A stretch of 64,000 nucleotides of DNA, taken from Romanomermis culicivorax (Eukaryota > Nematoda > Enoplea > Mermithida > Mermithidae). Made by a program: the position numbers and the translations under genes. Below, one piece after another: positions 1-57,200 of the stretch. The notes under the pieces are model-generated. The model ran no database searches. It saw nothing but the letters and a program-made list of their open reading frames with translations, and was not told where the DNA came from. The stretch's first letter is position 1. Each line of letters starts with the position of its first letter. The DNA lies in the NCBI GenBank assembly GCA_963922205.1, contig CAWUHX010000015.1:1922001-1986000 (forward strand), in the 5' to 3' direction.

Positions 1-5
1 CTGCT

Positions 6-792: not shown

Positions 793-1000
793 TGTCAACG
801 TGACACCACCAGAATGTGGGCCTTGCGCCGATTGGACTTGTTGCCTATGGCGATCGACTATAACCGCGGTAGAAGATCTGTTATCGTTGATCGTATCCCC
901 TTTCAACGTTTTGACTTCATTGACCAAGTCGGCGTTATTTTTCTCCAATGCTTCCAAACGCGAACGTAAATTGTCGTTTTCCGTTTGACAATGGCGTAAC
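793..1000 (-). CDS. crh-2: bZIP gene exon 7 (leucine zipper), last visible exon
   Basis: Acceptor TATTATAG, donor GTGAGT. It codes the rest of the zipper (Leu405 to Leu436, with heptad leucines at 415, 422, 429 and 436), then a hydrophilic His/Arg/Gln-rich tail ending in GGVTLT at the splice site. More exons must follow to the left. Confidence 0.88.
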
Positions 1001-27112: not shown

Positions 27113-29872
27113 AGCACAGAAAATCTCAATATGTCGATGCCAAATCAGCGAAATTTCATCAATTTTCCAAAATATGTTGCTGTGTTCTTCGTTTTATCAA
27201 TATTACATTGATAAATTTCCACAGATTTTACGGATTATTTATCCAATGCCCGTTTATTTCCAATATCTAGCTTTTCAAATAAATTACACTTCATAGGCAT
27301 ACGTTTGTTATTGTTTTTTTTTTTCAATAAATTGTTCTCCGATATTTCGTACACATGAAGGAGTTTTGTTTATTATTTTTGTTGTTTTTAACCAAAAAAG
27401 CGTCAGTTCAGGATCTCCTATGGCTATGTCTCATCTATAATTCATAACTTATTCTCGTTCCTTTTTTCGTGTGTTTTTTTGTGGGCAACGTCTGTCAAAT
27501 TTTTTGTGCATTGTGTTATTGTTATTGTACGGTTTAGAGACGTATTATGCTTTTAAATTTAAAATTGATAGAAAATAGTACTTTTGTCAAAACCTTTCAC
27601 ATTGAGCTTTTATTGTAAATTTTTTACTTATTAATTTGTTGAGGTTAGTTAAGTATGCTCACAAATTTTGAGTCCTATTCGTCAAATGTGGTTGAAGAAG
27701 ACCGTATGAAAATAAATAGTATTTGCCTTTTCATTTTTTATTTATTTATTCATTTATTTATTTTTTAGTTTCTTTTACTTTTCAGCTTTTTATAGCTTTT
27801 TATTTTTTAGTTTTTAAAGTTTTTTTCATATTTTGTTTTTTCATTTGGTTTTTATTTTTTATTATTTATGTATGATAGAAATAGGATTTTTTAGCAGCTT
27901 TCGAGAACAGAATTTAGATTATCTGGCATTGAGAATTTCTATCAATCGAGCCAATGTTCCATTGGTTGCACAGTAGCGTTTGTTTTGCCAAGTTTGAGCC
28001 GATTTTCAGATAAAAAGAGGCTTGAAACTTAAAAATGCATTCCTAGAAACGATGTCAAATGTTCACTATTTCCTGGAACAAATAATGAAGAATCGATTTG
28101 TTAGGCAATAAAATTATGCATAACTTTTGGTCAAATTTTAGAGCATTTGCTGTGAATGACATTGCAGGCGGATTGAAATTTGATCTCTAATATCCATGAA
28201 TATACGCGTTGCTACTACCTTGAGCTGTGTAGGTATGAAAACATAAAATTGTTAGTAATACTCGTGAAATAATTCCATCCAGTTTTACTTGATTACTCTT
28301 ACACTAAAGTACAGTAATTGTGCACTTGCATCAGTCTTCATATTGGTTTTTAGTGAGTTGTTCAGTTGAAGTAAATATCTTATCATTTGTTTACGTTAAG
28401 CTAATGGTTATAGATCTTTGATGAGATTCTATTTGGGAACACTGTAATAGAATTGTAAGGCTGTAAGCTTATTGCGTGAAAGTTACTGTATGTAAGGGTT
28501 TATAAACATATCAAATATTCAATCCGCTGAACAACAGGTAAAAAATGTTATTCTAGTTGCCATTCTATATGTTACTTTGGTTACTTTGAGAAGTCTCACG
28601 TAACAATGTTTTAACCGTCATTATGTGGTTGTGACCGGCTATTGCTGAAGAAAATAAAAAAGAAAATAGAAAGCATAAAGATAACCTACGAGAAGGTTTA
28701 AACAATATAAAGTGGTGGATGACACAAAACTTCAGGTGACCGCTTCTTTTTACTATTGTGAAAGCCATGAACAGTACATTTTCTTTGTTTTCGACATTTT
28801 CACACTATACGATAGACTTGCTTGCAATTTTAAAACTGTCCTAACAACTCAACTTTTCCGCTACAATCAGTAATATGTAAAAATTTCATTGTGCACAGCA
28901 GTGTTTCAACCAAAATATCGAAAGTAATGTTCATCTTTCTAGCTCAAAAATGAGAATTCATACCCAAAAAATCAGTATCAGCTTCTATTTGAACTAAATA
29001 TAATATTTATGCGCATTACGTTGATACTCGTTTTATCATCTATTGTTTGCTTTCGAAGGTATGAATCCAGTTTCTTCGTTTTCGATTACTGAATCAATAT
29101 CAGCCAAGACTCAAAATTTATTATTCATAATTTAATTTGCTGATAAAACATGTTCATAAGTTGCTACATATGAGAATGCTTCCTTCTATTCACAATTAAA
29201 ACGTTATCCGCACTAATGTAGGTCATTCATAATAAATCTAAAGAATGCAGAGTAGAGTGGGTCATAAAAGGTATCCAGGCAATGTATCGAAGTGCAGCAA
29301 CAAGCCAGTGGAGTTTCTTATGGAACATTGTCCATTTCTTTCTGTTAGAGTATGTTAGCGGATTCGAATTTCATAAACTTTAGATTTGACTTCAGATATC
29401 AGTCGATCTTCTCATCCTTTTCCTTCACGAATTTAACGCCTCTGGCAGTTGCACTTGGTAAATTTCGCTTGTTGGGTACATTCGTGTGGTTTTCAGCATC
29501 TTCGTTTTGAGGCCTAACAGAAATTTTGCGTCCGATTGATCCCTCTAGCACCAACGGATTTTCATAAAAGGTTTCTCCACTTCAGTGCGAGCATAAGACA
29601 AAAGCTGAGCAGCTCAAGCTTACTGTCTGCTTTTTTAAGACTTGCAGATTGAAAAATGACTAAAATAATCTCTTCAAAATCGTCTTCAAACTTTTTATCA
29701 TCACTGTAGAATTTTTTAGACAAAAATTATTATGAATTAGTTCAGTTTGCTTGCAAATTTTCATCTCTTAGCGGAAAATTACAAAAATATGGCGTAAGTG
29801 GTTGCCTAGCATGAAGGCATTATAAGCAAAAAGCAAACTTTGGCATGTTCGTTCCTCATCCAGCCGTAAAAT

Positions 29873-29935
29873 CCAATCTCATAGCCAATCTCACACAATT
29901 TGCCAATCTCATAGCCAATCTCACACAATTTTATT
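29873..29935. repeat. Short tandem repeat (~29-bp unit)
   Basis: Two units containing CCAATCTCATAGCCAATCTC. The same pair is present at 40115-40177 in copy 2. Confidence 0.6.
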
Positions 29936-30141
29936 TCTACATAAATTGCCATGATGTCGAATTACGTTTTGTTTTTGTTTTCGACATTTGTGATGTAGTT
30001 CCGCGGCTGCGAAACCCATATCGTGAAAAATATTCCTTTTTTAAGTGCTGTTTATAATTTGATTAATTTTTTTTCAGTTTTTTAATGCATTTAGTCTATT
30101 GCTGAGAAAAACAATGCTTCGATATTGTTTTCATTCAACTG

Positions 30142-30245
30142 GCACATGTAACAGCTCTTGGAGCTCGGGAACCGAAAAAGGTGTCTGGGAGTAGTCAGTA
30201 ATTTCTCACACTTGAGGTGTCTGTTTCGAAATTCTCTCCAAAAAA
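30142..30245. mobile_element. Decayed CATACATGTAA-family MITE fragment
   Basis: GCACATGTAACAGCTCTTGG onward follows the left part of the family (G-rich block, GTCAGTAATTTC, then a TCTCTCC block). The counterpart in copy 2 is at 40385-40488. Confidence 0.45.
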
Positions 30246-30653
30246 ATTGAATGATTTTGGGACGACAGGAATTCGTAGCACAAAAATTGTTGAGCTATGG
30301 TTTGCCTTTGTATAATTACTCGTAAATAGAAAAAAAAGATAGAAATTATCAAAATCCTCTCCACACAGCTTTTATAGAATGATTTTTCAATCGAAAAATG
30401 GTCAAAAGTTAGTTGAATAGGCTCACATATTTCTAGTATTTTGTAACACGTGGCTTTGAAGGAAACGGTAAAAATAGTGAAATGATACTTGCTTTCCACT
30501 TTCATTGTTTAGAAACATTCGAAGCAAGACAGACTATAGTTTTTTATCAAATTTATTTTTCTAGCCGTAGGATCCGAATACTCTGCTAGACACACGGTCG
30601 AAAATTTATGGGTGTTCTCAGGCCGGTTCAAGTGCTTTCAAACGTTTGCTTGA

Positions 30654-30904
30654 CTATAGTCTGTTTTTCTTGAAATGCTTCTAAATAATGAAAGTATAAA
30701 GCAAGTAGTATTTCAGATTTTCACGATTTGCTGATGAACAATATATCGTACAGGACTGGAAACTTGTGAGCATATTGACCTAACCTTTAACAATTTTTAG
30801 AGCAAAAGATTTTACAGAAAGAGCTCCATGTATGCATTTTTGACGACAGTACTGATTTGTGTCACTTTTCTATTTGGAAGCATTTTATAAAAAACAGACT
30901 ATAG
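30654..30904. mobile_element. MITE with CTATAGTCTGTTTTT ends
   Basis: 251 bp with perfect 15-bp inverted ends CTATAGTCTGTTTTT / AAAAACAGACTATAG. TA steps at both edges would fit a Tc1/mariner-type TA duplication, but this is not proven. Relatives occur at 32611, 50635, 61009 and 62011, and the duplicate at about 40894-41144. Confidence 0.75.
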
Positions 30905-32610
30905 ATGTAATTCTTCGCTCAGCTGTTTTGTGTCCGAAGAAAGCTATCCAAGAGCAGTTCCTCCACATATCCCATCATCCTTAAAAATTCATTCACTGGC
31001 CGTTTTTGACTACTTCTTCACTAAAAATGTTGAACTGAAATAAGGTGAACAAGTTCGAAGCCGTCGGAATAAGCTCGTCGTTGTTCTATCAAAGGGTTGT
31101 TCTATCTATCAAATTCTATTCTTCTGACCCGTGGTTCACTTTTCGTCAACTAGGGAGCTGTTTGTGTACAAGAGCAATTTTAACTTTATTTTCAAATTAT
31201 GCCAAAAATCCTAGGAAATCCATAGGCGACTGATTACCATGCATCATCAAGATTTTTTTCAAATAGTATTTCTGTGCTACTGCATTCTATATGAGAAAAA
31301 GACGTTTAAGTTTTCAGATAGCAAAGTTTTGAAGGGGTAGAGTTAGTGGGTAGAGATCGTGCTCCATTTAAGAGGTGTATATTCGTAAATGTAATTGCGA
31401 TTAACTTTTTTTTTATTGGCCATCTAATAAGTACTGGGCTTCATGCATGATACAAGTGTCAGTTTTGCAGTGAATCTATATTTATTATTCGACATCATGC
31501 ACTGACGACGATGATATTTAATTGGAAAATCAAATTTTTGGACATAATGCAGAAGTCTTGAGAAAATAGTCAATTTGTTTTGAAATAAAGAGTGCATTAG
31601 AAGTACTTTTTGGCTACAGTAAGCATATAATAAATTTGATTGCTTTTGTTTATGCCGCATTATTTGCATGAGCATATTTTTGCGTTCGAAGGTTTCTTTA
31701 ACAAAATGGAATTTAGACAAGAGCACACGGAGGCGGCAATAATGCATGTAAATGCGAGTGTGAAACGCTATGGAAATACCCTAGGCATACATGCTCTTGT
31801 GGGGCTTTATTCCGGCAGTTCTTTTCTGGGCGTCAGCAATCTGACCTTAACTTGAGCAGAATTCGAATTTTTTGAGCCAAAATTTTGTGACCGCTAACAA
31901 CCAGCAGACTTTTCATGTTGTGTATGATTCCCCTAATAAATTATCATCACATATTGTAGCACATTACTCCCCTGAAATCGACAGGATACCTACTTGTGTG
32001 ATGGATCGGGAGTCAAAAGCTGGTTCAAAAGCACAGCAAATGTTTCAAAATCTTTACCAGAGTTCCAAAAATGTGGCCACCCCATTGTTATAATTTTCGA
32101 AAGCGCAGCTTGCAGACAGAAAATCAACAACACGAAATGTAGAATTTCCCGATTCCTTTTAATTCTCTCTCATTGATTATTACAAGCCTGATTATTATCT
32201 ATTCTGGTTAATAATGATTGTTATAGTTGGGGGGCGGGTTATATCGAAGAGCTAGTTTTACTAGAATAAATACGGTTTCTGAGTGAGTCAAAATTATGCA
32301 ACTTTGTGTTAATTATTCGTTTTCGGTAAAGTACAATTATTTGATCAAAAACACAAGGCATAGTCGATTTTCGGGATAAAAATGTGAGCAAGTTTAACCA
32401 AACAAATTGACCTTTTCTCTCTCTAGACTTGATTGGAGAAAACCCAAATTTGGAGACAATTGAGCAGCTTTAGACCCAAAATTTTCGTTTTTCGTTAATT
32501 CCATGCCCATTATATTAGATGAGCCATATCATTCTCCCATCACTGTTGTATGTAGTAAATTGACGAGCTTGTTTCGGGAAGCAGAGGTCAGCAATAGGTT
32601 GTACTGAATG

Positions 32611-32858
32611 TATAGTCTGTTTTTTATAAAATGTTTGTAAACCGGTAAAATGACAGAAACTTGCACTGTTGCCAAAATTGTTCCCATCAAGTTTCAACGG
32701 TAGACTTTTTTCAAAAAAATGTTGAAGGCTATTCGAGTTAGCGCAAAAATTTTCAGTCCTGTGTGACATGTAGCTTAGCAGAAAATTGTTAAAATAAAAA
32801 ATAGTACTTGCTTTCCACTATTATTATTTACGAGCATTTCAAGAAGAACAGGCTATAG
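32611..32858. mobile_element. CTATAGTCTG-family MITE, second copy, inverted
   Basis: Runs from TATAGTCTGTTTTTTATAAA to CAAGAAGAACAGGCTATAG. Internal blocks such as AGTACTTGCTTTCCACTATT are shared with 62011-62257. The duplicate lies at about 42853-43100. Confidence 0.7.
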
Positions 32859-33842
32859 TAGTAATCAGCAGTAAATTTTCAGAGGGTTTCATATTATAGC
32901 ATGTACACAACCATAAATCAGAAAAGCCAAATCCCAACGAAGACCATTAGTTAGTGGTGTTCCATTCAATAAAAGATCTCCCGTAGAGGCTTTAGTCCAC
33001 GTATTTGGTCAAATGTGCTTTGTAATGTCACAATAAGCATCGTATCAGTCAGTATTTGCTGAAATGTGTCATTTTCTAATCATGCACACCTTTCCTCATT
33101 TTTTGAGCAAATTCAATAAATATTGAAAACTTCTGAATTCATGCTCACAAATTTTGTGTTCCGGAACGTAAACTATGCAGTTCATGTTATTTATAAGTGT
33201 TTACGCACGTTAAAATTAATCCAAACGTGTTTGCAAGTTGTAGCAAAATTAAAAATGTTGATCAGCAGCTTAGCGACATCAAACTTCTCATCATTCACAC
33301 TTTGACAATTTTTTCAACTAACGGCCAGAGTTTATTGTTTTGTAGGCATGGAAACAGCTTTATCGGAAAATATTCTTGTTACCCATCATTCTACGAATCT
33401 TAGTTTAGTCTTTGTCATGAAGCTCGTAAAATTGGATTCTGATGTAGAATTTGTTTTGTATAGAAAATACCACAAGAGATTGGAAGAGGTTAGCCCAGTA
33501 GTAGAAAGAAACGAATACTTTCAAATTTTAAATTTCAATTTTTCAAACATTTAATGGAGTCAGTTAAATCTGTTGTATGAACATAAGAAGACGTCAATTC
33601 TTATTAGTCTCTTCGTCAATCAGGAAAATTAATTTTTATGTTTTAGTTACCGTCGTTGTCCATGTTTTTTGTGTTTATTATTTTCCTTTATTTTTCTCTT
33701 TCTCTACGTTTTTGGATTAAAAAGGAGCCTGAAAGCGATGTGCAATTGTAAGAATTGATGAATTTTACTTATAACAGGCCGAAATATATTATTTGGGAAA
33801 AGCTCTGTCAGTAATTTGAAAGTGGCTATAGCTGAAGCCTGA

Positions 33843-34350
33843 CGTTTCTCTTTCTCCGTTTCTCCGTTTTTGTTTCTCTGTTTCTCTGTTTCTCTGTTTC
33901 TCTGTTTCTCTGTTTCTCTGTTTCTCTGTTTCTCTGTTTCTCTGTTTCTCTGTTTCTCTGTTTCTCTGTTTCTCTGTTTCTCTGTTTCTCTGTTTCTCTG
34001 TTTCTCTGTTTCTCTGTATCTCTGTTTCTCTGTTTCTGTTTCTCTTTTTCTGTTTCTCTGTTTCTGTTTCTCTGTTCCTGTTTCTCTGTTCCTCTGTTTC
34101 TGTTTCTCTGTTTCTCTGTTTCTGTTTCTCTGTTTCCGTTTCTCTGTTTCTGTTTCTCTGTTTCTGTTTCTGTTTCTCTGTTTCTCTGTTTCTGTTTTCT
34201 GTTTCTGTGTTTCTGTTTCTGTTTTTCTGTTTCTGTTTCACTGTTTCTGTTTCTCTGTTTCTGTTTTTCTGTTTCTGTTTCACTGTTTCTGTTTCTCTGT
34301 TTCTGTTTCTCTATTTCTCTGTTTCTGTTTCTCTGCTTCTGCTTCTGTTT
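33843..34350. repeat. TTTCTCTG microsatellite, long allele
   Basis: About 508 bases, first almost pure 8-bp TTTCTCTG units (about 33884-34036), then a mix of TTTCTG and TTTCTCTG. The long 'proteins' read through it (repeating Phe-Ser-Val-Cys on one strand, Arg-Asn-Glu-Lys-Gln on the other) are repeat translations, not genes. Confidence 0.95.
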
Positions 34351-34876
34351 TTATTTTTTCTTTCTGTTCCTGCTCGTGTTTTTTTCCGATTTTGTTTCGG
34401 CTTGTTATACGTTTTTTCTCTGTCATTTATCTTCTATTTTTTTCCGTTTCCACTTCCAACTTCAGTTTTAATTTTATATCTTTTTTTCGTATAAATCTTA
34501 CACAATTCATTGTATAATCAACCAAAGTTCTATGCAACTTATTTTGTAACTTGTGTGTCACATGCGCCCTTCTTCGCCCACTAAAAGTTGCCCCTAGAAT
34601 ACATTTTCATAATTTTCAACAGAAGAGAAAAACTTGACCAGTATGATGTTTGTTCATTGAAATTGCCTGCCAAACTTGGCGTTTTTTATCTTGGCCACGA
34701 TTTTGTGACAGAAAAAAACCGGTGCTCCGTTCGATGACGAATCTGGCTCCCTTGGCCGTACAACTTTATGGCTTTTGTGAAAGTCATTGTTGCATCAGCT
34801 TCAACGATTAGCCAATTTTTATTTTGAACTTTCGGAGAAATTTTCCCCGGAAATTTATCATCGTTTCGTAACTGTC

Positions 34877-36226
34877 ATGGAAAAGGACAGCGAGAACGAT
34901 GCATGTTTGGGCGAAAGTAGGAAAACTTCCGGAAATTCTTTCAAGCATTTTCCGCAAAAGCGATTAACGGTTCTTAGTTGCGGATTTTTTATTTTCTTTC
35001 TACTGTACATTTTTTGGATTACTTATTTGGACGTTACGACGAGTTTTTCTTTCCAATCGCTTTATACATTTATCACGCCGACGAATAATAATGATTGGAA
35101 TAATAATATCAAATTGTCGGATAAATATACTATGCAAATTATTTTTCAAAATGAAAGTTCGAAGAAATGGTCGACCGTCGTAGAGACGCCATTTCCAGAA
35201 TCCAGAGTTGAAAAAATTGAAGGTAAGGCACAAAACTGATATTCTGCCATATTTTTTGAATGCATCTTCTTTGCAGAGTTTAAAATTCTACCCATATTAG
35301 CAATAAACTTTTTAAAAGTAAAGGACCTGAGCTGCTCAATATTTTATTGGTGTGTATTCTCAAAATGGGATACAAATTTTTTAATGTGTTTAACGGTTAG
35401 ATTAAATACAACCTCTCATGCCCTAGTTTCCAGTCCGGCAAGCTCAAAGAGTTGTCAAATGAATGTCATGCAGATAATTCAGTAAGGAGTCTAACTTTGG
35501 AGTGAATCAAGAACGCATCACACAAATCTAGAGTTCCTGTCTTCCAGCAACAATTTTTCCTAAAAAACTATTGAACTTGTGGATATTTCAGTTTTCGGAG
35601 TGATAGATTTTCATCAGCAAAAAACTAACATAATGATACATAGTCCAACTTTGATTATAAGCGAGTAAGCGCTTCTTAGCGATTTTAGCGAGTATGGTGG
35701 TATCACAAATACAGTATCACAAATACGGTGTTTAATAAATTTTGATGTGATCAATTGTGCTATAAAAGGTTGGAAACCTCCAGCTGAGGTTTCATATGGA
35801 AAACTTTGATGGTCGGTGATGAAATTAGAATCTATCATTTTATAAGACTAGACAATTCTGAACTGCATCCTTTTATTTTTGTAATTAAATTAAAAACGGT
35901 ACTTTCAGAGAAATTTACAATTTTCAGAAAATGACATAGTACTTTATCTGAAATCGGTTGGCTATTAATCAAAAGCAAGTCTTTCGTAAATAATGATGTA
36001 GTTGGAGATTTCCTTATTTGCAGCTCTACTTTTCGGTGGTATATTCCTTAAAATTGTGGATTTTCTCGAAACCTTAAACTGCAAACTTCAATGGTTTTGT
36101 TTTCAGTTATGCCGCTCAGTCTGCAGATTCCGAAAACTAAAGAAAATCCGGCATATGACATTAAAAAGTACTTTTGCTACTGGAATATTCACAACTGTCC
36201 TTATCATTCCCTGAAGTTACCAAACT
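34877..36226 (+). pseudogene. Duplicate GT92 exons 1-2 (assembly copy)
   Basis: Exon 1 at 34877-35222 and exon 2 at 36107-36226 repeat 44864-45209 and 46091-46210. The few coding changes keep both open (for example Asn/Asp and Thr/Ser near the end of exon 1, Glu/Lys in exon 2). There are no downstream exons before the gap, so alone it would give a truncated protein. Most likely the other allele placed twice; a real partial gene duplication is the alternative. Confidence 0.85.
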
Positions 36227-37255
36227 GTATTGACATTAATTTTCATTTTGCAGATCTTGAGCCGGTTTCATCAATGTGGCTTAAGCTCCAGCTGAGCTGC
36301 AGTTTTAGCTATAGCTTAACTCTATATGTTATAACGTTGCCGTTAAGCTGCAGCTCAGCTGCAACTTAACTAATACACACTAAACATATCGAGAAGATTG
36401 AGCTGCAGCTGAGTTATTCTTGAAAGGCACTTATAGGTACGACCTAAAATAGTGTACCTCGATTTTTGACAGTCATTTGTGGTTGAAATATGGTCAGAAT
36501 TTGATTGACCTGCCCCAGATTTTCTTTGTTTCCCATGCCTTGCTTTTATGATTTACAAGCGCAAGTTCAAGAAAAACTGCATATTAGTAAAAAGTTGTAC
36601 TGTAGGAAAATTGATATTTCTTTTCTGGTAAAAAATTTGGAAAAATGTTGTACAGTAGGAAAATGGAATTTTTTCATGAGTCATTACACTTTGAGAAAAT
36701 GCGAGACCAAAACTTTTTTAGTTAGCAAAAGCAATTTTCTCACTCATTTCTCGTTGCATATATTCACATCATAATGGAAAATTTTACTACACCTATAATT
36801 TGGGTGGAATTATTTGAGATTGCATGTAAAGGTCGATCGAGTGCGACTGTCATTGTCCAACTTTTTTTGGCAAGCGACCGGATTGACGAGCCGGAGATGA
36901 AAGTGCCATATAAACATTCTGTAATTGTTGTATTGGTGCATACATCAGCAACAAAAAAATAATTGTTGTTGTTTTGGAAAATCTGAAATCACGAACAATT
37001 TCAAAGAAGATCCCAGTCCGATATGAAAAAGTAGATAATTTAAAACGGGACTCGTATGCACTAAGCTATAGTCAGCCTGTCTTAAAATACTCGTAAATCA
37101 TAGAACTGGAAAACAAATACTATCGCGTATTTTTATTTTCTGCTCAACAGCACGTCATTTGGATCTTACAATGTCAACCTGACTAACCTTTTGATGATTT
37201 TTGAATAAATAATTTTACAGTAAAGGATTTATGAAAACGATTTCTAAGATCGCAC

Positions 37256-37355
37256 NNNNNNNNNNNNNNNNNNNNNNNNNNNNNNNNNNNNNNNNNNNNN
37301 NNNNNNNNNNNNNNNNNNNNNNNNNNNNNNNNNNNNNNNNNNNNNNNNNNNNNNN
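37256..37355. other. 100-N assembly gap between the two copies
   Basis: Exactly 100 Ns. The right neighbour begins with AGCACAGAAAATCTC, the same word that opens copy 1 at 27113. Confidence 0.99.
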
Positions 37356-40300
37356 AGCACAGAAAATCTCAATATGTCGATGCCAAATCAGCAAAATTTA
37401 ATCAATTTTCCAAAATATGTTGCTGTGTTCCCCATTTTATCAATTTTACATTGATAAATTTCCACAGATTTTACGGATTATTTATCCAATGTCCGTTTAT
37501 TTCCAATGTCTAGCTTTTCAAATAAATTACACTTCATAGGCATACGTTTGTTATTGTTTTTTTTCAATAAATTGTTCTCCGATATTTCGTACACATGAAG
37601 GAGTTTTGTTTATCATTTTTGTTGTTTTTAACCAAAAAAGCGTCAGTTCAGGATCTCCTATGGCTATGTCTCATCTATAATTCATAACTTATTCTCGTTC
37701 CTTTTTTCGTGTGTTTTTTTGTGGGCAACGTCTGTCAAATTTTTTGTGCATTGTGTTATTGTTATTGTACGGTTTAGAGACGTATTATGCTTCTAAATTG
37801 AAAATTGATAGAAAATAGTACTTTTGTCAAAATCTTTCACATTGAGCTTTTATTATAAACTTTTTTACTTATTAATTTGTTGAGGTTAGTTAAGTAAGCT
37901 CACAAATTTTGAGTCCTATTCGTCAAATGTGGTTGAAGAAGACCGTATGAAAATAAATAGTATTTGCCTTTTCATTTTTTATTTATTTATTCATTTATTT
38001 ATTTTTTAGTTTCTTTTACTTTCCAGCTTTTTATAGCTTTTTATTTTTTAGTTTTTAAAGTTTTTTTTTCATATTTTGTTTTTTCATTTGGTTTTTATTT
38101 TTTTATTATTTATGTATGATGGAAATAGGATTTTTTAGCAGCTTTCGAGAACAGAATTTAGATTATCTGGCATTGAGAATTTCTATCAATCAAACCAATG
38201 TTCCATTGGTTGCACAGTAGCGTTTGTTTTGCCAAGTTTGAGCCGATTTTCAGATAAAAAGAGGCTTGAAACTTAAAAATGCATTTCTAGAAACGATGTC
38301 ATATGTTCACTATTTCCTGGAGCAAATAATGAAGAATCGATTTGTTAGGCAATAAAATTATGCATAACTTTTGGTCAAATTTCAGAGCATTTGCTGTGAA
38401 TGACATTGCAGGCGGATTGAAATTTGATCTCTAATATCCATGAATATACGCGTTGCTACTACCTTGAGCTGTGTAGGTATGAAAACATAAAATTGTTAGT
38501 AATACTCATGAAATAATTCCATCCAGTTTTACTTGATTACTCTTACACTAAAGTACAGTAATTGTGCACTTGCATCAGTCTTCATATTGGTTTTTAGTGA
38601 GTTGTTCAGTTGAAGTAAATATATTATCATTTGTTTACGTTAAGCTAATGGTTATAGATCTTTGATGTGATCCTATTTGGGAACACTGTAATAGAATTGT
38701 AAGGCTGTAAGCTTATTGCGTAAAAGTTACTGTATGTAAGGGTTTATAAACATATCAAATATTCAATCCGCTGAACAACAGGTAAAAAATGTTATTCTAG
38801 TTGCCATTCTATATGTTACTTTGGTTACTTTGAGAAGTCTCACGTAACAATGTTTTAACCGTCATTATGTGGTTGTGACCGGCTATTGCTGAAGAAAATA
38901 AAAAAGAAAATAGAAAGCATAAAGATAACCTACGAGAAGGTTTAAACAATATAAAGTGGTGGATGACACAAAACTTCAGGTGACCGCTTCTTTTTACTAT
39001 TGTGAAAGCCATGAACAGTACATTTTCTTTGTTTTCGACATTTTCACACTATACGATAGACTTGCTTGCAATTTTAAAACTGTTCTAACAACTCAACTTT
39101 TCCGCTACAATCAGTAATATGTAAAAATTTCATTGTGCACAGCAGTGTTTCAACCAAAATATCGAAAGTAATGTTCATCTTTCTAGCTCAAAAATGAGAA
39201 TTCATACCCAAAAAATCAGTATCAGCTTCTATTTGAACTAAATATAATATTTATGCGCATTACGTTGATACTCGTTTTATCATCTATTGTTTGCTTTCGA
39301 AGGTATGAATCCAGTTTCTTCGTTTTCGATTACTGAATCAATATCAGCCAAGACTCAAAATTTATTATTCATAATTTAATTTGCTGATAAAACATGTTCA
39401 TAAGTTGCTACATATGAGAATGCTTCCTTCTATTCACAATTAAAACGTTATCCGCACTAATGTAGGTCATTCATAATAAATTTAAAGAATGCAGAGTAGA
39501 GTGGGTCATAAAAGGTATCCAGGCAATGTATCGAAGTGCAGCAACAAGCCAGTGGAGTTTCTTATGGAACATTGTCCATTTCTTTCTGTTAGTGTATGTT
39601 AGCGGATTCGAATTTCATAAACTTTAGATTTGACTTCAGATATCAGTCGATCTTCTCATCCTTTTCCTTCACGAATTTAACGCCTCTGGCAGTTGCACTT
39701 GGTAAATTTCGCTTGTTGGGTACATTCGTGTGGTTTTCAGCATCTTCGTTTTGAGGCCTAACAGAAATTTTGCGTCCGATTGATCCCTCTAGCACCAACG
39801 GATTTTCATAAAAGGTTTCTCCACTTCAGTGCGAGCATAAGACAAAAGCTGAGCAGCTCAAGCTTACTGTCTGCTTTTTTAAGACTTGCAGATTGAAAAA
39901 TGACTAAAATAATCTCTTCAAAATCGTCTTCAAACTTTTTATCATCACTGTAGAATTTTTTAGACAAAAATTATTATGAATTAGTTCAGTTTGTTTGCAA
40001 ATTTTCATCTCTTGACGGAAAATTACAAAAATATGGCGTAAGTGGTTGCCTAGCATGAGGGCATTATAAGCAAAAAGCAAACTTTGGCATGTTCGTTTCT
40101 CATCCAGCCGTAAAATTCAATCTCATAGCCAATCTCACACAATTTGCCAATCTCATAGCCAATCTCACACAATTTTATTTCTACATAAATTGCCATGATG
40201 TCGAATTACGTTTTGTTTTTGTTTTCGACATTTGTGATGTAGTTCCGCGGCTGCGAAACCCATATCGTGAAAAATATTCCTTTTTTAAGTGCTGTTTATA

Positions 40301-43300
40301 ATTTGATTAATTTTTTTTCAGTTTTTTAATGCATTTAGTCTATTGCTGAGAAAAACAATGCTTCGATATTGTTTTCATTCAACTGGCACATGTAACAGCT
40401 CTTGGAGCTCGGGAACCGAAAAAGGTGTCTGGGAGTAGTCAGTAATTTCTCACACTTGAGGTGTCTGTTTCGAAATTCTCTCCAAAAAAATTGAATGATT
40501 TTGGGACGACAGGAATTCGTAGCACAAAAATTGTTGAGCTATGGTTTGCCTTTGTATAATTACTCGTAAATAAAAAAAAAGATAGAAATTATCAAAATCC
40601 TCTCCACACAGCTTTTATAGAATGATTTTTCAATCGAAAAATGGTCAAAAGTTAGTTAATAGGCTCACATATTTCTAGTATTTTGTAACACGTGGCTTTG
40701 AAGGAAACGGTAAAAATAATGAAATGATACTTGCTTTCCACTTTCATTGTTTAGAAACATTCGAAGCAAGACAGACTATAGTTTTTTATCAAATTTATTT
40801 TTCTAGCCGTAGGATCCGAATACTCTGCTAGACACACGGTCGAAAATTTATGGGTGTTCTCAGGCCGGTTCAAGTGCTTTCAAACGTTTGCTTGACTATA
40901 GTCTGTTTTTCTTGAAATGCTTCTAAATAATGAAAGTATAAAGCAAGTAGTATTTCAGATTTTCACGATTTGCTGATGAACAATATATCGTACAGGACTG
41001 GAAACTTGTGAGCATATTGACCTAACCTTTAACAATTTTTAGAGCAATAGATTTTACAGAAAGAGCTCCATGTATGCATTTTTGACGACAGTACTGATTT
41101 GTGTCACTTTTCTATTTGGAAGCATTTTATAAAAAACAGACTATAGATGTAATTCTTCGCTCAGCTGTTTTGTGTCCGAAGAAAGCTATCCAAGAGCAGT
41201 TCCTCCACATATCCCATCATCCTTAAAAATTCATTCACTGGCCGTTTTTGACTACTTCTTCACTAAAAATGTTGAACTGAAATAAGGTGAACAAGTTCGA
41301 AGCCGTCGGAATAAGCTCGTCGTTGTTCTATCAAAGGGTTGTTCTATCTATCAAATTCTATTCTTCTGACCCGTGGTTCACTTTTCGTCAACTAGGGAGC
41401 TGTTTGTGTACAAGAGCAATTTTAACTTTATTTTCAAATTATGCCAAAAATCCTAGGAAATCCATAGGCGACTGATTACCATGGATCATCAAGATTTTTT
41501 TCAAATAGTATTTCTGTGCTACTGCATTCTATATGAGAAAAAGACGTTTAAGTTTTCAGATAGCAAAGTTTTGAAGGGGTAGAGTTAGTGGGTAGAGATC
41601 GTGCTCCATTTAAGAGGTGTATATTCGTAAATGTAATTGCGATTAACTTTTTTTTTATTGGCCATCTAATAAGTACTGGGCTTCATGCATGATACAAGTG
41701 TCAGTTTTGCAGTGAATCTATATTTATTATTCGACATCATGCACTGACGACGATGATATTTAATTGGAAAATCAAATTTTTGGACATAATGCAGAAGTCT
41801 TGAGAAAATAGTCAATTTGTTTTGAAATAAAGAGTGCATTAGAAGTACTTTTTGGCTACAGTAAGCATATAATAAATTTGATTGCTTTTGTTTATGCCGC
41901 ATTATTTGCATGAGCATATTTTTGCGTTCGAAGGTTTCTTTAACAAAATGGAATTTAGACAAGAGCACACGGAGGCGGCAATAATGCATGTAAATGCGAG
42001 TGTGAAACGCTATGGAAATACCCTAGGCATACATGCTCTTGTGGGGCTTTATTCCGGCAGTTCTTTTCTGGGCGTCAGCAATCTGACCTTAACTTGAGCA
42101 GAATTCGAATTTTTTGAGCCAAAATTTTGTGACCGCTAACAACCAGCAGACTTTTCATGTTATGTATGATTCCCCTAATAAATTATCATCACATATTGTA
42201 GCACATTATTCCCCTGAAATCGACAGGATACCTACTTGTGTGATGGATCGGGAGTCAAAAGCTGGTTCAAAAGCACAGCAAATGTTTCAAAATCTTTACC
42301 AGAGTTCCAAAAATGTGGCCACCCCATTGTTATAATTTTCGAAAGCGCAGCTTGCAGACAGAAAATCAACAACACGAAATGTAGAATTTCCCGAATCCTT
42401 TTAATTCTCTCTCATTGATTATTACAAGCCTGATTATTATCTATTCTGGTTAATAATGATTGTTATAGTTGGGGGGCGGGTTATATCGAAGAGCCAGTTT
42501 TACTAGAATAAATACGGTTTCTGAGTGAGTCAAAATTAGGCAAATTTGTGTTAATTATTCGTTTTCGGTAAAGTACAATTATTTGATCAAAAACACAAGG
42601 CATAGTCGATTTTCGGGATAAAAATGTGAGCAAGTTTAACCAAACAAATTGACCTTTTCTCTCTCTAGACTTGATTGGAGAAAACCCAAATTTGGAGACA
42701 ATTGAGCAGCTTTTGACCCAAAATTTTCGTTTTTCGTTAATTCCATGCCCATTATATTAGATGAGCCATATCATCCTCCCATCACTGTTGTATGTAGTAA
42801 ATTGACGAGCTTGTTTCGGGAAGCAGAGGTCAGCAATAGGTTGTACTGAATGTATAGTCTGTTTTTTATAAAATGTTTGTAAACCGATAAAATGACAGAA
42901 ACTTGCACTGTCGCCAAAATTGTTCCTATCAAGTTTCAACGGTAGACTTTTTTCAAAAAAATGTTGAAGGCTAGTCGAGTTAGCGCAGAAATTTTCAGTC
43001 CTGTGTGACATGTAGCTCAGCAGAAAATTGTTAAAATAAAAAATAATACTTGCTTTCCACTATTATTATTTACGAGCATTTCAAGAAGAACAGGCTATAG
43101 TAGTAATCAGCAGTAAATTTTCAGAGGGTTTCATATTATAGCATGTACACAACCATAAATCAGAAAAGCCAAATCCCAACGAAGACCATTAGTTAGTAGT
43201 GTTCCATTCAATAAAAGATCTCCCGTAGAGGCTTTAGTCCACGTATTTGGTCAAATGTGCTTTGTAATGTCACAATAAACATCGTATCAGTCAGTATTTG

Positions 43301-44863
43301 CTGATATATTTCATTTTCTAATTATTCACACCTTTCCTCATTTTTTGGGCAAAGTCAATAAATATTGAAAACTTCTGAATTAATGTTCACAAATTTTGTG
43401 TTTCGAAACGTAAACTACGCAGTTCATGTTATTTATAAGTGTTTACGCACGTTAAAATTAATCCAAACGTGTTTGCAAGTTGTAGCAAAATTAAAAATGT
43501 TGATCAGCAGCTTAGCGACATCAAACTTCTCATCATTCACACTTTGACAATTTTTTCAACTAACGGCCAGAGTTTATTGTTTTGTAGGCATGGAAACAGC
43601 TTTATCGGAAAATATTCTTGTTACCCATCATTCTACGAATCTTAGTTTAGTCTTTGTCATGAAGCTCGTAAAATTGGATTCTGATGTAGAATTTGTTTTG
43701 TATAGAAAATACCACAAGAGATTGGAAGAGGATAGCCCAGTAGTAGAAAGAAACGAGCACTTTGGAATTTTAAAGTTCAATTTTTCAAACATTTAATGGA
43801 GTCAGTTAAATCTGTTGTATGAACATAAGAAGACTTAAATTCTTATTAGTCTCTTCTTCAATCAGGAAAATTAATTTTTAGGTTTTAGTTACCGTCGTTG
43901 TCCATGTTTTTTGTGTTTATTATTTTCCTTTCTTTTTCTCTTTCTCTACGTTTTTGGATTAAAAGGAGCCTGAAAGCGATGTGCAATTGTAAGAATTGAT
44001 GAATTTTACTTATAACAGGCCGAAATATATTATTTGGGAAAAGCTCTGTCAGTAATTTGAAAGTGGCTATAGTTGAAGCCTGACGTTTCTCTTTCTCCGT
44101 TTCTCCGTTTTTGTTTCTCTGTTTCTGTTTCTGTTTCTCTGTTTCTCTGTTTCTCTGTTCCTCTGTTTCTCTGTTTCTCTGTTTCTCTGTTTCTGTTTCT
44201 CTGTTTCTGTTTTTCTGTTTCTGTTTCACTGTTTCTGTTTCTCTGTTTCTGTTTTTCTGTTTCTGTTTCTCTGTTTCCGTTTCTCTGTTTCTGTTTCTCT
44301 ATTTCTCTGTTTCTGTTTCTCTGCTTCTGCTTCTGTTTTTATTTTTTCTTTCTGTTCCTGCTCGTGTTTTTTCCGATTTTGTTTCGGCTTGTTATACGTT
44401 TTTTCTCTGTCATTTATCTTCTATTTTTTTCCGTTTCCACTTCCAACTTCAGTTTTAATTTTATATCTTTTTTTCGTATAAATCTTACACAATTCATTGT
44501 ATAATCAACCAAAGTTCTATGCAACTTATTTTGTAACTTGTGTGTCACATGCGCCCTTCTTCGCCCACTAAAAGTTGCCCCTAGAATACATTTTCATAAT
44601 TTTCAACAGAAGAGAAAAACTTGACCAGTATGATGTTTGTTCATTGAAATTGCCTGCCAAACTTGGCGTTTTTTATCTTGGCCACGATTTTGTGACAGAA
44701 AAAAACCGGTGCTCCGTTCGATGACGAATCTGGCTCCCTTGGCCGTACAACTTTATGGCTTTTGTGAAAGTCATTGTTGCATCAGCTTCAACGATTAGCC
44801 AATTTTTATTTTGAACTTTCGGAGAAATTTTCCCCGGAAATTTATCATCGTTTCGTAACTGTC
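37356..44863. other. Upstream region of the GT92 gene
   Basis: 7.5 kb without a supported gene; it corresponds to 27113-34876. ORFs such as 43590-43796 have an ATG and a nearby TTTTGTAG acceptor, but the two alleles differ there by several amino-acid changes, which argues against selection. Two CTATAGTCTG MITEs and the microsatellite are the only structures. Confidence 0.5.
44085..44335. repeat. TTTCTCTG microsatellite, short allele
   Basis: About 251 bases, the counterpart of 33843-34350 with the pure 8-bp block mostly missing. It sits roughly 530 bases upstream of the GT92 start codon. Confidence 0.95.
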
Positions 44864-45209
44864 ATGGAAAAGGACAGCGAGAACGATGCATGTTTGGGCG
44901 AAAGTAGGAAAACTTCCGGAAATTCTTTCAAGCATTTTCCGCAAAAGCGATTAACGGTTCTTAGTTGCGGATTTTTTATTTTCTTTCTACTGTACATTTT
45001 TTGGATTACTTATTTGGACGTTACGACGAGTTTTTCTTTCCAATCGCTTTATACATTTATCACGCCGACGAATAACAATGATTGGAATGATAATATTAAA
45101 TTGTCGGATAAATATAGTATGCAAATTATTTTTCAAAACGAAAGTTCGAAGAAATGGTCGACCGTCGTAGAGACGCCATTTCCAGAATCCAGAGTTGAAA
45201 AAATTGAAG
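44864..45209 (+). CDS. GT92 exon 1 (cytosolic tail, signal anchor, start of stem)
   Basis: Start ATG at 44864. It codes MEKDSENDACLGESRK, then KRLTVLSCGFFIFFLLYIFW as the anchor. It ends after ...VEKIE plus one base at GTAAGG. An in-frame open stretch continues upstream without an ATG, so this ATG is the first usable start. Confidence 0.85.
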
Positions 45210-48200
45210 GTAAGGCACAAAACTGATATTCTGCCATATTTTTTGAATGCATCTTCTTTGCAGAGTTTAAAATTCTACCCATATTAGCAATAAACTTTTT
45301 AAAAGTAAAGGACCTGAGCTGCTCAATATTTTATTGGTGTGTATTCTCAAAATGGGATACAAATTTTTTAATGTGTTTAACGGTTAGATTAAATACAACC
45401 TCTCATGCCCTAGTTTCCAGTCCGGCAAGCTCAAAGAGTTGTCAAATGAATGTCATGCAGATAATTCAGTAAGGAGTCTAACTTTGGAGTGAATCAAGAA
45501 CGCATCACACAAATCTAGAGTTCCTGTCTTCCAGCAACAATTTTTCCTAAAAAACTATTGAACTTGTGGATATTTCAGTTTTCGGAGTGATAGATTTTCA
45601 TCAGCAAAAAACTAATATGATACATAGTCCAACTTTGATTATAAGCGAGTAAGCGCTTTTTAGCGATTTTAGCGAGTAAGGTGGTATCACAAATACAGTA
45701 TCACAAATACGGTGTTTAATAAATTTTGATGTGATCAATTGTGCTATAAAAGGTTGGAAACCTCCAGCTGAGGTTTCATATGGAAAACTTTGATGGTCGG
45801 TGATGAAATTAGAATCTATCATTTTATAAGACTAGACAATTCTGAACTGCATCCTTTTATTTTTGTAATTAAATTAAAAACGGTACTTTCAGAGAAATTT
45901 ACAATTTTCGGAAAATGACATAGTACTTTATCTGAAATCGGTTGGCTATTAATCAAAAGCAAGTCTTTCGTAAATAATGATGTAGTTGGAGATTTCCTTA
46001 TTTGCAGCTCTACTTTTCGGTGGTATATTCCTTAAAATTGTGGATTTTCTCGAAACCTTAAACTGCAAACTTCAATGGTTTTGTTTTCAGTTATGCCGCT
46101 CAGTCTGCAGATTCCGAAAACTAAAAAAAATCCGGCATATGACATTAAAAAGTACTTTTGCTACTGGAATATTCACAACTGTCCTTATCATTCCCTGAAG
46201 TTACCAAACTGTACTGACATTAATTTTCATTTTGCAGATCTTGAGCCGGTTTCATCAATGTGGCTTAAGCTCCAGCTGAGCTGCAGCTTTAGCTATAGCT
46301 TAACTCTATATGTTATAACGTTGCCGTTAAGCTGCAGCTCAGCTGCAACTTAACTAATACACACTAAACATATCGAGAAGATTGAGCTGCAGCTGAGTTA
46401 TTCTTGAAAGGCACTTATAGGTACGACCTAAAATAGTGTACCTCGATTTTTGACAGTCATTTGTGGTTGAAATATGGTCAGAATTTGATTGACCTGCCCC
46501 AGATTTTCTTTGTTTCCCATGCCTTGCTTTTATGATTTACAAGCGCAAGTTCAAGAAAAACTGCATATTAGTAAAAAGTTGTACTGTAGGAAAATTGATA
46601 TTTCTTTTCTGGTAAAAAATTTGGAAAAATGTTGTACAGTAGGAAAATGGAATTTTTTCATGAGTCATTACACTTTGAGAAAATGCGAGACCAAAACTTT
46701 TTTAGTTAGCAAAAGCAATTTTCTCACTCATTTCTCGTTGCATATATTCACATCATAATGGAAAATTTTACTACACCTATAATTTGGGTGGAATTATTTG
46801 AGATTGCATGTAAAGGTCGATCGAGTGCGACTGTCATTGTCCAACTTTTTTTGGCAAGCGACCGGATTGACGAGCCGGAGATGAAAGTGCCATATAAACA
46901 TTCTGTAATTGTTGTATTGGTGCATACATCAGCAACAAAAAAATAATTGTTGTTGTTTTGGAAAATCTGAAATCACGAACAATTTCAAAGAAGATCCCAG
47001 TCCGATATGAAAAAGTAGATAATTTAAAACGGGACTCGTATGCACTAAGCTATAGTCAGCCTGTCTTAAAATACTCGTAAATCATAGAACTGGAAAACAA
47101 ATACTATCGCGTATTTTTATTTTCTGCTCAACAGCACTTCATTTGGATCTTACAATGTCAACCTGACTAACCTTTTGATGATTTTTGAATAAATAATTTT
47201 ACAGTAAAGGATTTATGAAAACGATTTCTAAGATCGCACTTGAAGCATTTTATAAGAGATAGAATTTTTGTGATGATTAACTGCATAAACGAAATATACA
47301 TACTACAGTTACAGTAACATATTCAACGCGTGATTCAACTGAGATTGCTTAAATCAAAAGTACTGTGTTAAAATAAAATTATCAGTACTACTATAGTCCA
47401 TGCATTTTTAAATGAGATTTGAACAGTAGAGAATTATCCGGGCAGATGAAAACCATGTAATGCACATGGACGCTTTTTTCTCAAGTTGTAAGCCAACAGT
47501 GTCAATTTGCGGAAAATGTCCGCCTAAAAAACCTGTTTTTCCTAAAATTTTTCTCTATAACAAATCTGGGAAGTCCTATTTTGTATTTTTTGTATGTTCT
47601 GCCAAACTACCTGTTATATAAAAATTCAAATTCATGACAATACTCAACCAACTATTGGAAATTTTTGAGCAAAAAAATTTTACAGTCCCTGTTTAAAACA
47701 CTTCTAAAAATCAGTACGCATCTGTGTCATATTTTTCATTTTAGGAGCATTAAAAAAGCAGACAATAGGTTCTTTTTCTCTACCTGAGGATTTTTTGCTT
47801 TCCAAGACTCATATAGAAAAAAATGAGCTTTCTGCTGCTCCTTTTCCAAAATATTGCGTTTTTACACTCACTGTCGAAATCCGACTGGTTCTACAAAGTT
47901 TTATTCGTGTTTGATATTCCCAAGTGACAAATGGAATGTGATATAGCTTGAATAGAACGATGAAACTCAGGCCACATTTTTGATTGTCGACTGAAAATTA
48001 ATCCTTACATTCATAACATATCGAGTTGTTCCTTCATGAACCCGTTTAGACAAGAGGCTCTTGCTGGGAACAATTGCACCAACGACAACTGAACTACTGA
48101 AAGACTACTGAAGTTCAGTAGTCGAAAAATTCGGTTGCACCAATGCGTTTTCTACTGAACTATTCTAGCAGAAGTTCAGTAGTTCAATAAGCCTTTCTAA

Positions 48201-51200: not shown

Positions 51201-54200
51201 AGTTAAGCTGCAGCTGAACTGCACCTTAACGACAATGTTATTACATACACAGTTGAGTATCAGCTCAGCTGAAGCCTAATTTTCTCCATATGCTTTGTGT
51301 GCATGAGTTTTGCTACAGCTTAAGCTGCAGCTCAGCTGGAGCTTAAGTCTCTTTGATGAAACCGTCCCCTGGTCGCAGCAATAACAGGGTTTTCAGCTAA
51401 TGTTTTCGTAACATTTATGAAATTCATAGAATGATGAATTGTCAATATATCATCTTTGATAAATTACTGAGATCATGTAGGCAATTCTGAGTGATCGGTT
51501 AGGATAATTTGCTATCGATGTGCTATCAATTTTCGATATTTTCATATTTTCCTTTTCCATACAGATGATATGCCAGACGTCATCCAGTGGTATACTGTAC
51601 CCGAGCAATACGACAAGGACGACAAATGGTACTTATCCGTTATGTCGGCCTTCTACGACTACAGGATAGGAAAGGTCGTCGTCCTTTTAGCATCGGACGC
51701 TGCTTATCAGATCGAAAAAAATCCCGAATCCCAGCCTAAATTCACTTGCGTCTATTTCTACGATAATTTGACTTACACGGCTACTGTAGAAGGTTATTTC
51801 TACACTAGTTACATCTTCTATTGCCCAATGTTCAAGTTGAAACGTTTCAAACATGCCAAACGGATAAGCCGGGATCAAATACCCGAAGCCGTTAGTTTGA
51901 TTCGCAACGATACCTTCAATGAAGAAGTGATCAATTGGACGATTCCCGTTGTGAATTTATATCGAAGGAAAATTGATCGATTTTCGATGATCAGCGATCA
52001 AAACGGATCTTTGTCAATTCCAGTCGATAATGCTCGAAAATTGGCTATATGCGTCGGAATCATGTTCGGCTATCAACCGTGGTTGACCGTTTTGCAATTC
52101 ATAGAATTCCATAGGATGCAGGGAGTGGAGAAATTCCTCTTTTTCTACAGCAGCATGCACGAATCGATCAAAGAAATTTTCGAATGGTATAAAGTTAATG
52201 TACCGGGTTTGATCGAAACGATCTATTGGTTACCGCCGCATTTTACATGCGATCACGAGTACAGGTACGCATCATATGTAATCATATGATAACTAAAGAA
52301 TATACAAATTATGATCAATAAGTTTTGAACATTCAATATTTTTCAACAAACTTTTCAGACTTCATTCTCCTGCCATTTCTTACCTAATCGAAAGCTCGAC
52401 GAGAAAATTAAAAACACAATACCTCGCCCCTCGGCAACATTCCCACATAGAAACCAGTGGGGCAAATCTTGACCTCAGAAATGACAGGATATTTTGAGAC
52501 ACATGATGTAGAACAAAGCTTCTGATTGGTTTTTTTAAAGAATGTTTAGCCAAGTAGGATGATCAGCCATGTTGATTTTTTCAAGATTACATCGAATTCG
52601 AAGGTAGCAAATTTTTCAAGTGTATTCGTATGGAAGTGTACAGCAAAATCTAGCTATGAAAAATAACAAAAACAAGCCATGAACTCATCTTGGTGGTCTT
52701 CCTGCATCAGTGACCTGCTCTCATACACAAGAATTCTGTCGCTAGAATTCAGATACAAGACTTAGTTAAGTCTGTTAGTGCTCGAGGGCTCGGCTTTCAT
52801 CATCACAAAATGTCAAATGTGGCGAAAAAATCTTTGATACACATTTGACGAACTTCTCTCTGGGTCACTAAAAAAAGCTTTGACGTTTTCTTTTTTTTCA
52901 AGTTTAACGTTTTTTCTTTAACGTTTCTTTAGAGAGTTGTATGAATCGATTCAGATATACACTTTAGGCAAGCATAAATTTTTTTCACGCCAATGTCATT
53001 GCCAGTTTTTGGTGCAGTTATGAATGATGAAAGTTAGATGAACATTTTTACTGTCCTTACCAATTTTGCTTTCTGTCTTCAGAAAGGTCGTTTTTTGGTC
53101 CACATGCTGTATAAATTTCACTCAATTAGTCCAAAAAGTCAGAAGCCCTTGTCTCCTAGTAAGTTTAAACTGAAATCTCATCGAAGTATCGTGTGCAATT
53201 TTCAGATGTCAGCTATTGCGCGACAATTATTGCTCATACACTTTAATGCACAAGTACAAATACGTGGCGAATAGCGATTACGACGAATTGTTCTATCCGG
53301 CGTATATCGAAAATAAAACTTTACTCGACTTGTTGGACGAAATTGACGACGAAACTAGAGGAAGTTTCACATTCAGGTGAGCGAGGAGGCCACATAAATA
53401 AGAAGTGCCAGGCTTTAGCCTTTTATCTTATATAGGATTTATCTTTTACTGGTCTACTTCGCTGATTATTTTTTGAATTTTCAATGCGTTGCATTGAGGA
53501 TGATTTAGACTTAAGCTAATGAGTCCTAATTTCCATTGAATTATTGCAACTCCTACACAATGGCGGTTGCCATATTGATTGCTCGCAGTGTAATTGTCGA
53601 CCCGTTGACCAAATGGCGATCCGCTCTAAATTTGCCAATAGGGCGAGGAAATGGGACCTTTCTGATAGGAAATGGTCATTTTCCAACACAAATGCCAATG
53701 TTTTTGGTCCCTTGTGCCGTGGGTACAAATTTTAATTCGGAAGAATGTTCGTGACCCTCATTGCATTGGACTGAAACCTCTTACTTTTTTCTAATTAAGA
53801 TGGACCAAGTCAAACTTGGAAGATTATTACAGGAAACTTGGTTGTCAAAAAATCTAGTAAAATTATTTATTAAGTTGGTAAAATTGGGTCACTGCTTCAA
53901 GTTGTAATCGACTATCGGAAAGGTGAGTTTCAGTACCAACTGAGTAATTAACTTTAATTGGTGAATTGGATATTTTTATATTGATATGCATTGGATTGAA
54001 AATCGGCAATTCCCGCTCAGGAATAGCTTTTTCATGAGCTACTCTACACTACAAAAAGTGACAGAAAAAATTTTTACGCTCATTAATGGAACAAAACACG
54101 ATATCTTCGTGTACTAAAGATGTTTCAGAATCATTTCTTAAACACTAAATACGCAGATGAAAACCTAAAAAATTTATGTATACCCGCTTGTGTCCTCAGT

Positions 54201-57200
54201 GGTAGTTCTTTTACCTATTTTGCTATCATCCACCTTTGCTTCTTTTTTTTATGAAAGTCTTGATAAAATGAAATGCGAGATTTATGGTTTTACCTGAATT
54301 GAAAGATCAGATGAAGTCTTTTCCTAATTATAGAGTCCAATGGCAATTCCACAGAAGTTCAACTACTGCGAAAAAAATTTCACATTATCCACGTTAGGCA
54401 TTTGATTGACATTTATTTAACATTTTTGATGCTGCAAGATTTATTTTCACATTCGAAAAGTTGGTATTAGATCTTTGAACCGTGCAAAAACTAAATAGGA
54501 AAGTTTTTGCACATCCATCAAAATTTCTGCAGCATGCAATGATTACACTGACTTGTAACGGCGATAATTTTCACATGATCCGTTGCATCTAAACATTGTG
54601 CAATTTGTAAGGAAGAAAAAATTAAGTGACCGTTTTCATATTCCGTATAAGTTGTTTTAATGGCAATTCGATACTTCTGATTGGCCGACCAGAATCCGAT
54701 TTTGGTAAATTTTGCGGTGGCACATCATCACTGAAAAATGAAATGCTACTGTTGAAAACTGTTTTTTTTTAATTTTTATCATCAATGCATTTCCATTTGG
54801 CCTCTATACGCATCAAAAATTTTAGTCACAAGTTATTGAAGCTGATCTTCCTATTTCAAAATCGAGTGTTCCTTCAGTATAAGTTTAAGCCTGAAATAAT
54901 GCGGTTATCACCGTAGACCTTTTACACGAAGGCCTATAAAATTGGACCATAACCTTGCTAACTTCACCAAGGGTTTCAACTTTACTCCATTCATTTTGAA
55001 ATGATTGATTGGGCGGCCGGAGTTTGGGCAAATGCAGCCTTCTACAGATCATGAAATCAATTTCTATAATCTTGAAACGATTGAAAAGAGTTATCATCAA
55101 GGGTGTATCAGGAAGGAAAACTTTATACAATAGAGTCAACCAGCATTTCATAATTTGGAATAAAACTTTGGCTGCGACTTCGATGCATCACTGCATCGAT
55201 CATTTAAAGATCGATGGAGCATAGTTTATTTTTTTTACATCTTTCTCTTTGACATGTCCGGTAAAACAACTGCTTTCTTTGCTCTACCGAAGCTCTTTGT
55301 ATTTTCATCTTCGTTCAAAAGTGTCAGATGCTACGTTTCACAAAAAATTCAATTTCAGGGCCATCTATCATCAAATTTTATTGAAAGATACGCCCGAATG
55401 GAATCAAATTTCGGCCGACAACGCTTCGGACGTTGTCGGCACGTTTTTGCCACTATACCATTTTAGGAATGTCAGCACGATGGCTGGCCACTTCTATTCA
55501 CCAAAAACCATAACGAAACCCGAAACGGTGTTGAAGCGCTGGATTCATTTCGTCAGCAATCACATAAAAGGTGAGTCTAGCTCAGTAAGGAACTCCTGTT
55601 CAAGTTAACTGCTACTGAACGCTTTCTATAGTCATAAAAAACAAGAATAATTGCATTCTCCAAAATCTTTTACTGGATGTTCTTCCTGCAGAATTTCTCG
55701 CCAAAAAATTGAGAAAGTGTTTGTTGAATCAGCTAGCAAATTTCCGCTCCAAAATTGGAAAAATGTGAACTAACATTTGATGTCGCGCTTTTATTTTTGC
55801 AAGCGGTAAAAAATAGATGAGAACTGCAGAATACAAGCATAACGCTAAAGATATGGTTGCGTGCAAGCATACATCTAAAAAAGTGTGTTGGATACATAAT
55901 GTACTCGGTTTATAATTACTACAGTCAATCGTTCTCGAAATGCTTTCAAGTGATAAAAGTTGAGAAAGAGTCTATTTATTTGCAAACGAGCCTCGGAAAG
56001 CAAAACAATTTGAAGAAATCGGCGAGCAGGCAATAAACCTGCATCGTAGGCCAATCATCTTTTTTCTCGATTTGTTCACCTAACTGCTACAGTCAACTCG
56101 ATAAAAAAGGTGTCCGCGTACGCAGGTTGTTTATCGCTTACATGAACATCTTTCTGCGGGCCGAGGCTCATTTCTACCAGTAGACTATAGTTCACACTTT
56201 CACCATTTTCTACCGGAACATAATCTCGCATGAAACTGGAAATCCATGAGCCATATTTTGGAATATCCATATTTTGAATACAAAATTCCATTGTAAAACC
56301 TCCGTTTACCGATTTTTATGACAGAACTACCGTGTTTTTCCATACTAATCCAACACATTTTCCTGTTTACTCTATGCTTTATTACCAGCAAATCAAGTTC
56401 ATCGAACATATCTGATTAAGCTTATGTACATATTAAGGTAGAAATGGATTGCAGACAACGAAAGAGAAAAGCCTGGGGCCGGTTGAAATATTCGGGTTTA
56501 AGTCCGAGATCGCGATTATCTCCAGCAAAATAATCGCGAGCTCGCGATTTGCAGTTGCAATAACCTCGGGATGATCCCAACGTCGCGATTATCTCGAGCT
56601 CGAGATAATCGCGAGCTCGGACTTAAACCCGAGCTCGAGCAGTGCGGTTGCAATAAATTTTCTAGTCTAATTCTGATCGCGAAGTCAGTTTCAGTGGCAC
56701 ACAAAAGTTAATCCTCATCGGTAGTAGGTTTAAGTCCGAGAAATTTGTTGTTTTTTATGCTTGTCATAATGAATTTTCTACATAATCAACTAAATAATCA
56801 CCAAGCGAATCGGGTTGGATTTGTTCAACATTTTGAGAATAAATATTTGGTTTTGGCCTGTATCCAATGTTGCTAAAAATGGAATTCCAATTTTTCGAAT
56901 TCGAATTTTTCTTTTTCTAAATTGAGCTTTTCGCTTCCCGACGCTAATTTTTCTTGCTTTATAGAAACACTGTTTCATTCTAAAGGATCCACTTTTTGCC
57001 ACTTCGGCTCTTCAACCATCAAACCTAGGCTTCCCCATGAAACTTTCGATGAAACAGCGGCCAATTCAGATAAACTAGTATTTGATTACAGACATCCTCG
57101 GATCTCTTGGAATGCTGCTGGTGTTCTAAATTGGTTGGAGAATTTTCGGAAGGTAGACAAGAATCAGGCGGTACACCAACCGTTTTCCAAACCGCCTTTT

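Follow-up and report, generated by a model that had tools for sequence, protein, structure and literature searches.

The features of the window, a stretch of 64,000 nt on scaffold C15 (CAWUHX010000015.1) of Romanomermis culicivorax, are compiled in Table 1. A segment of about 10 kb is found twice on the same strand, and the two copies are separated by a run of N. A second run of N is located at the left edge of the window and is followed by a stretch that repeats the end of the contig before it. Three ORFs with similarity to the GT92 family (PF01697) are located to the right of copy 2, and a candidate for the initial coding exon of this GT92 gene is present in each copy. Hereafter, the contig between both gaps is called the middle contig.

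Table 1. Gaps, repeated contig ends and GT92-related features of the window. Positions count from the first base of the window; those preceded by C15 are scaffold positions.
Feature	Position	Strand	Description	Evidence
Second gap	6..105	.	100 N; left edge of middle contig
Second overlap	106..8308	+	left end of middle contig, repeats end of left-hand contig (C15 1914043-1921980)	96.0-97.3% identity
Copy 1	27113..37255	+	10,143 bp; rightmost part of the middle contig (37,150 bp; putatively one haplotype)	blastn and mafft against 37356-47239
Candidate orphan first coding exon of GT92 gene, copy 1	34877..35222	+	from ATG to the base that corresponds to the donor of copy 2; ORF 34781-35236
Gap	37256..37355	.	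exactly 100 N; read as fixed filler for a gap of unknown size
Copy 2	37356..47239	+	9,884 bp; left end of right-hand contig (putatively another haplotype)	blastn and mafft
Candidate first coding exon of GT92 gene, copy 2	44864..45209	+	ends at a GT donor in phase with the acceptor before 51565; ORF 44768-45223
GT92 exon	51565..52264	+	exon ends set by eye from splice sites; ORF 51495-52286	PF01697 profile 1-70, E 1.5e-11
ORF with GT92 match	53174..53377	+		profile 84-138, E 5.5e-7
ORF with weak GT92 match	55225..55605	+		profile 150-195, E 0.0061; its 16.6 bits fall short of the curated threshold of 23

The two ORFs harbouring the candidate first exons encode a hydrophobic stretch and show 98.7% protein identity, with 5 nucleotide differences of which 2 change an amino acid. 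Judged from the splice phase and from the sequence read by eye, the copy 2 ORF probably holds the GT92 gene's first coding exon, whereby a random pair of donor and acceptor would fit in phase with one chance in three. The three GT92-matching ORFs occur only once each in 304 kb of scaffold (tblastn) and lie entirely in the single-copy flank right of 47239. Hence a duplication of these ORFs themselves was rejected on the basis of Pfam and tblastn. Between the copy 1 first exon and the gap no GT92 match was obtained among the ORFs and queries tested. The first-pass annotation had considered any count of GT92 exons at this locus inflated. This applies at most to a partial 5’ model: copy 1 holds no more than an orphan first exon, so that an annotator would gain at most an extra 5’ fragment and no second catalytic domain. 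Using Pfam with E values up to 1, no family was assigned to ORFs 28568-28804, 31427-31780, 31851-32090, 34781-35236, 44768-45223 and 46710-46943, and ARAGORN with the bacterial code predicted no tRNA in the window. An open frame at 20033-20887 gives a match (E 5.6e-10) to PF10328, the Srx family of chemoreceptors in nematodes; two weak relatives of it (24-26% identity, tblastn) are located ~116 and 146 kb further to the right on the same scaffold.

Left of copy 1 the arms of an inverted repeat (24549-24891 and 26144-26480, 80% alike) belong to a dispersed element. Among the best 40 of 2,121 candidate places, positions 26000-27100 give at least 120 matching pieces in the genome of the worm itself, one of them being the query; these frequently come as pairs of arms in inverted orientation. 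The element at 24549-26480 resembles a DNA transposon of the foldback or terminal-inverted-repeat type. Outside the window, two elements of ~9.3 kb in opposite orientation (C15 2005889-2015190 and 2061969-2071263) are 93.5% alike and carry terminal direct repeats of about 900 bp with 97.1% and 98.8% identity, respectively; they are probably LTR retrotransposons.

The copies were compared using blastn and global alignment. They match on the same strand with 98.2% identity over 7,017 bp and 98.9% over 3,163 bp. The match opens at the first base after the gap and closes at the last base before it, so that the overlap of 10.1 kb is 0 bp away from the contig end on both sides. The coordinates given by the first-pass annotation thus proved exact to the base. 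It had also described the sequence beyond the outer edges as single-copy, and indeed, at E 1e-5, neither the 500 bp directly left of 27113 nor those directly right of 47239 have any match but themselves in 304 kb of scaffold. At greater distance, dispersed repeats are present on both sides.

The coincidence of the inner copy edges with the gap edges had been taken as the mark of an assembly artefact. It is not diagnostic. If two contigs overlap, the repeat necessarily starts where the second contig starts and stops where the first one stops. If instead the junction of a true tandem duplication was lost during assembly, the visible repeat has the same limits and the remaining unit is hidden in the gap. 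We therefore rejected the geometry as proof of an artefact, and since it is the same under both readings, evidence beyond geometry is required.

Such evidence comes from the second gap. We examined 200 kb of C15 around the window, i.e. 264 kb including the window, and 304 kb with another 40 kb added. The 264 kb contain two gaps, both of 100 N and 37 kb apart, and a head-to-tail overlap is found at both of them; the additional 40 kb are free of gaps. At the second gap the stretch of the left contig between 7,963 and 25 bases from its end reappears as bases 1-8,203 of the middle contig, in two blocks of 96.0% and 97.3% identity. This overlap of ~8 kb is thus 0 bp from the contig end on the side of the middle contig and 25 bp on the side of the left contig. 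With both gaps showing an overlap, the 37,150-bp middle contig overlaps both of its neighbours. It has the appearance expected of a contig from another haplotype that bridges two others. As the two gaps bound one and the same contig, they are not fully independent instances. Of the 716 gaps listed for the published assembly they represent two, both located on C15.

A self-comparison of the 264 kb (matches of at least 700 bp and 85% identity) yielded seven matches. Four of them constitute the two gap overlaps, two are direct pairs of ~900 bp that resemble LTRs, namely the terminal repeats of the two ~9.3-kb elements mentioned above, and one is an inverted pair of 8.3 kb formed by these elements with each other. 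A direct tandem duplication of this length and identity away from a gap was not found in the 264 kb. Shorter and less similar repeats do occur.

A real and recent tandem duplication with a unit of some 10 kb or more and a junction left unassembled in the gap would produce the identical visible overlap, which in every case has the left end of the second contig and the right end of the first as its limits. Moreover, tandem repeats near the read length (HiFi N50 12.6 kb, PMC10879605) could break contigs. Nevertheless we regard it as very unlikely, because two separate events 37 kb apart are needed, each with an unassembled junction. HiFi reads are expected to resolve copies that are 1-2% apart, which likewise counts against a tandem duplication, and so does a copy 1 first exon lacking the GT92 exons, provided that the gap does not conceal them. 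If genuine, the locus would present two recent tandem duplications of 8-10 kb or larger, both broken at the junction, and thereby a duplication hot spot with a truncated 5’ copy of the GT92 gene, an outcome that we likewise consider highly improbable.

The differences between the copies were analysed by global alignment. Over 9,880 columns copies 1 and 2 differ by 65 transitions and 34 transversions, together 99 substitutions, and by 11 indels. Nearly all of the difference in length is due to two indels of 84 and 169 bp within a simple-repeat array near 33.9-34.4 kb. The array consists of CTCTGTTT-like units (33844-34393 and 44085-44385) and differs by ~250 bp between the copies, as would be expected of a variable-number repeat between alleles. 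For the second overlap, mafft gave 7,929 columns with 179 substitutions, of which 120 are transitions and 59 transversions, as well as 34 indel events, one of them 224 bp long; this alignment included the unmatched last bases of the left contig. The ratio of transitions to transversions of ~2:1 at both overlaps would fit allelic divergence. The substitutions between copies 1 and 2 are strongly clustered, with a variance-to-mean ratio of 4.6 in bins of 500 bp, a value reached by none of 2,000 random placements. This seems to fit haplotypes whose ancestries differ along the stretch. Clustered divergence can also arise from gene conversion between paralogues or from uneven constraint.

As the reported QV is 54.97 (PMC10879605), a divergence of 1-2% is far above the reported error. 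Sequencing error was accordingly judged an improbable source of the differences, given substitution rates of 1.0% and 2.3% and the excess of transitions. The same numbers stand against a homotype false duplication, by which one haplotype is assembled twice owing to read errors. It should result in the same geometry, but its probability appears practically negligible to us.

The remaining evidence concerns the assembly as such. The sequence in hand presumably belongs to the published R. culicivorax v2 (PMC10879605), which comprises 359.1 Mb in 595 scaffolds with 716 gaps and 70.6 kb of N, that is about one gap per roughly 500 kb. According to its description, HiFi DNA was obtained from up to 10 individuals and amplified. 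Contigs were built from HiFi reads with NextDenovo, subjected to one round of purge_dups and scaffolded by RagTag using a hifiasm assembly as reference. The authors ascribe oversized HiFi assemblies to several individuals together with separated haplotypes and state that the k-mer spectrum of v2 shows “some remaining artefactual duplications”. Duplicated BUSCO Metazoa orthologs amount to 3.2% in v2 vs 0.2% in the earlier short-read version (PMC10879605). RagTag introduces a gap of 100 bp between neighbours by default, and inferred sizes of less than 1 bp are set to 100 bp as well (PMC9753292). Pooled HiFi DNA, a purging and RagTag pipeline and a default gap of 100 bp together predict the structure seen here. 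With amplified DNA from up to 10 worms, half coverage is not a sharp prediction.

DNA from several individuals would also allow for a duplication polymorphism, with two copies in some of the pooled worms and one in others. This again needs the same coincidence at both gaps, and we judge it extremely unlikely. The proposal of the first-pass annotation that overlapping contig ends from different haplotypes were joined by a gap of fixed size is well supported, both by the matching pattern at the second gap and by the published assembly method. On the sequence at hand, the duplication is almost certainly a haplotype-overlap artefact of a known kind, that is a single locus written twice.

The following course of events appears most likely. 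The reads would stem from a pool of at most ten worms, the species being sexual. A first contig would have tracked one haplotype as far right as 37255. Its successor, derived from another haplotype, would start ~10 kb further left in true position and continue to the right, so that copies 1 and 2 would be alleles; the two haplotypes may come from different worms. We infer that the overlap was left untrimmed by purging. The scaffolder, ordering both contigs along the reference assembly, would then have put 100 N between them, by which the shared 10 kb were printed twice. The published pipeline suggests RagTag as the writer of the gap at 37256-37355. The same process would apply to the left end of the middle contig, and the real locus would be smaller than assembled by about 10 kb.

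Under the artefact interpretation, the middle contig repeats its neighbours over 18,346 of its 37,150 bases (106-8308 and 27113-37255). The locus would serve as a worked example of a known error type in a publicly available genome, and the opposite end of the middle contig would provide another. Should overlaps be hidden at many of the 716 gaps, local duplications and partial gene models near gaps should be distrusted. The error itself is ordinary, and its main use is a warning for gene counting.

Two classes of errors in the literature resemble our case. The heterotype false duplications of Ko et al. 2022 (PMC9516828), as described there, are allelic copies on one scaffold with a gap between them and may cause false partial gene copies. 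An assembly gap between the copies, 100 N at 37256-37355, is likewise present here. The signs given in that description are half depth, discordant reads and one-copy k-mers, whereas for pooled worms an exact half depth is not expected.

The duplicated overlapping contigs described by Kelley and Salzberg 2010 (PMC2864568) are nearby contigs aligning at their ends, with heterozygous sequence split between them and other sequence at their opposite ends. Contig ends overlap in this manner at both of our gaps (10.1 kb and about 8 kb). In their ideal case the alignment extends to within 10 bp of the contig ends, as reported for 11,113 of 13,576 cases in chimpanzee. Here it does so on both sides of the gap at 37256-37355 and on one of two sides of the gap at 6-105. 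Their cases were judged by mate pairs, in contrast to the comparison of sequence alone used here, and our overlaps of 8-10 kb come from long-read contigs. Finally, the runs of 100 N resemble the unknown gaps which RagTag is described to place between adjacent query sequences (PMC9753292).
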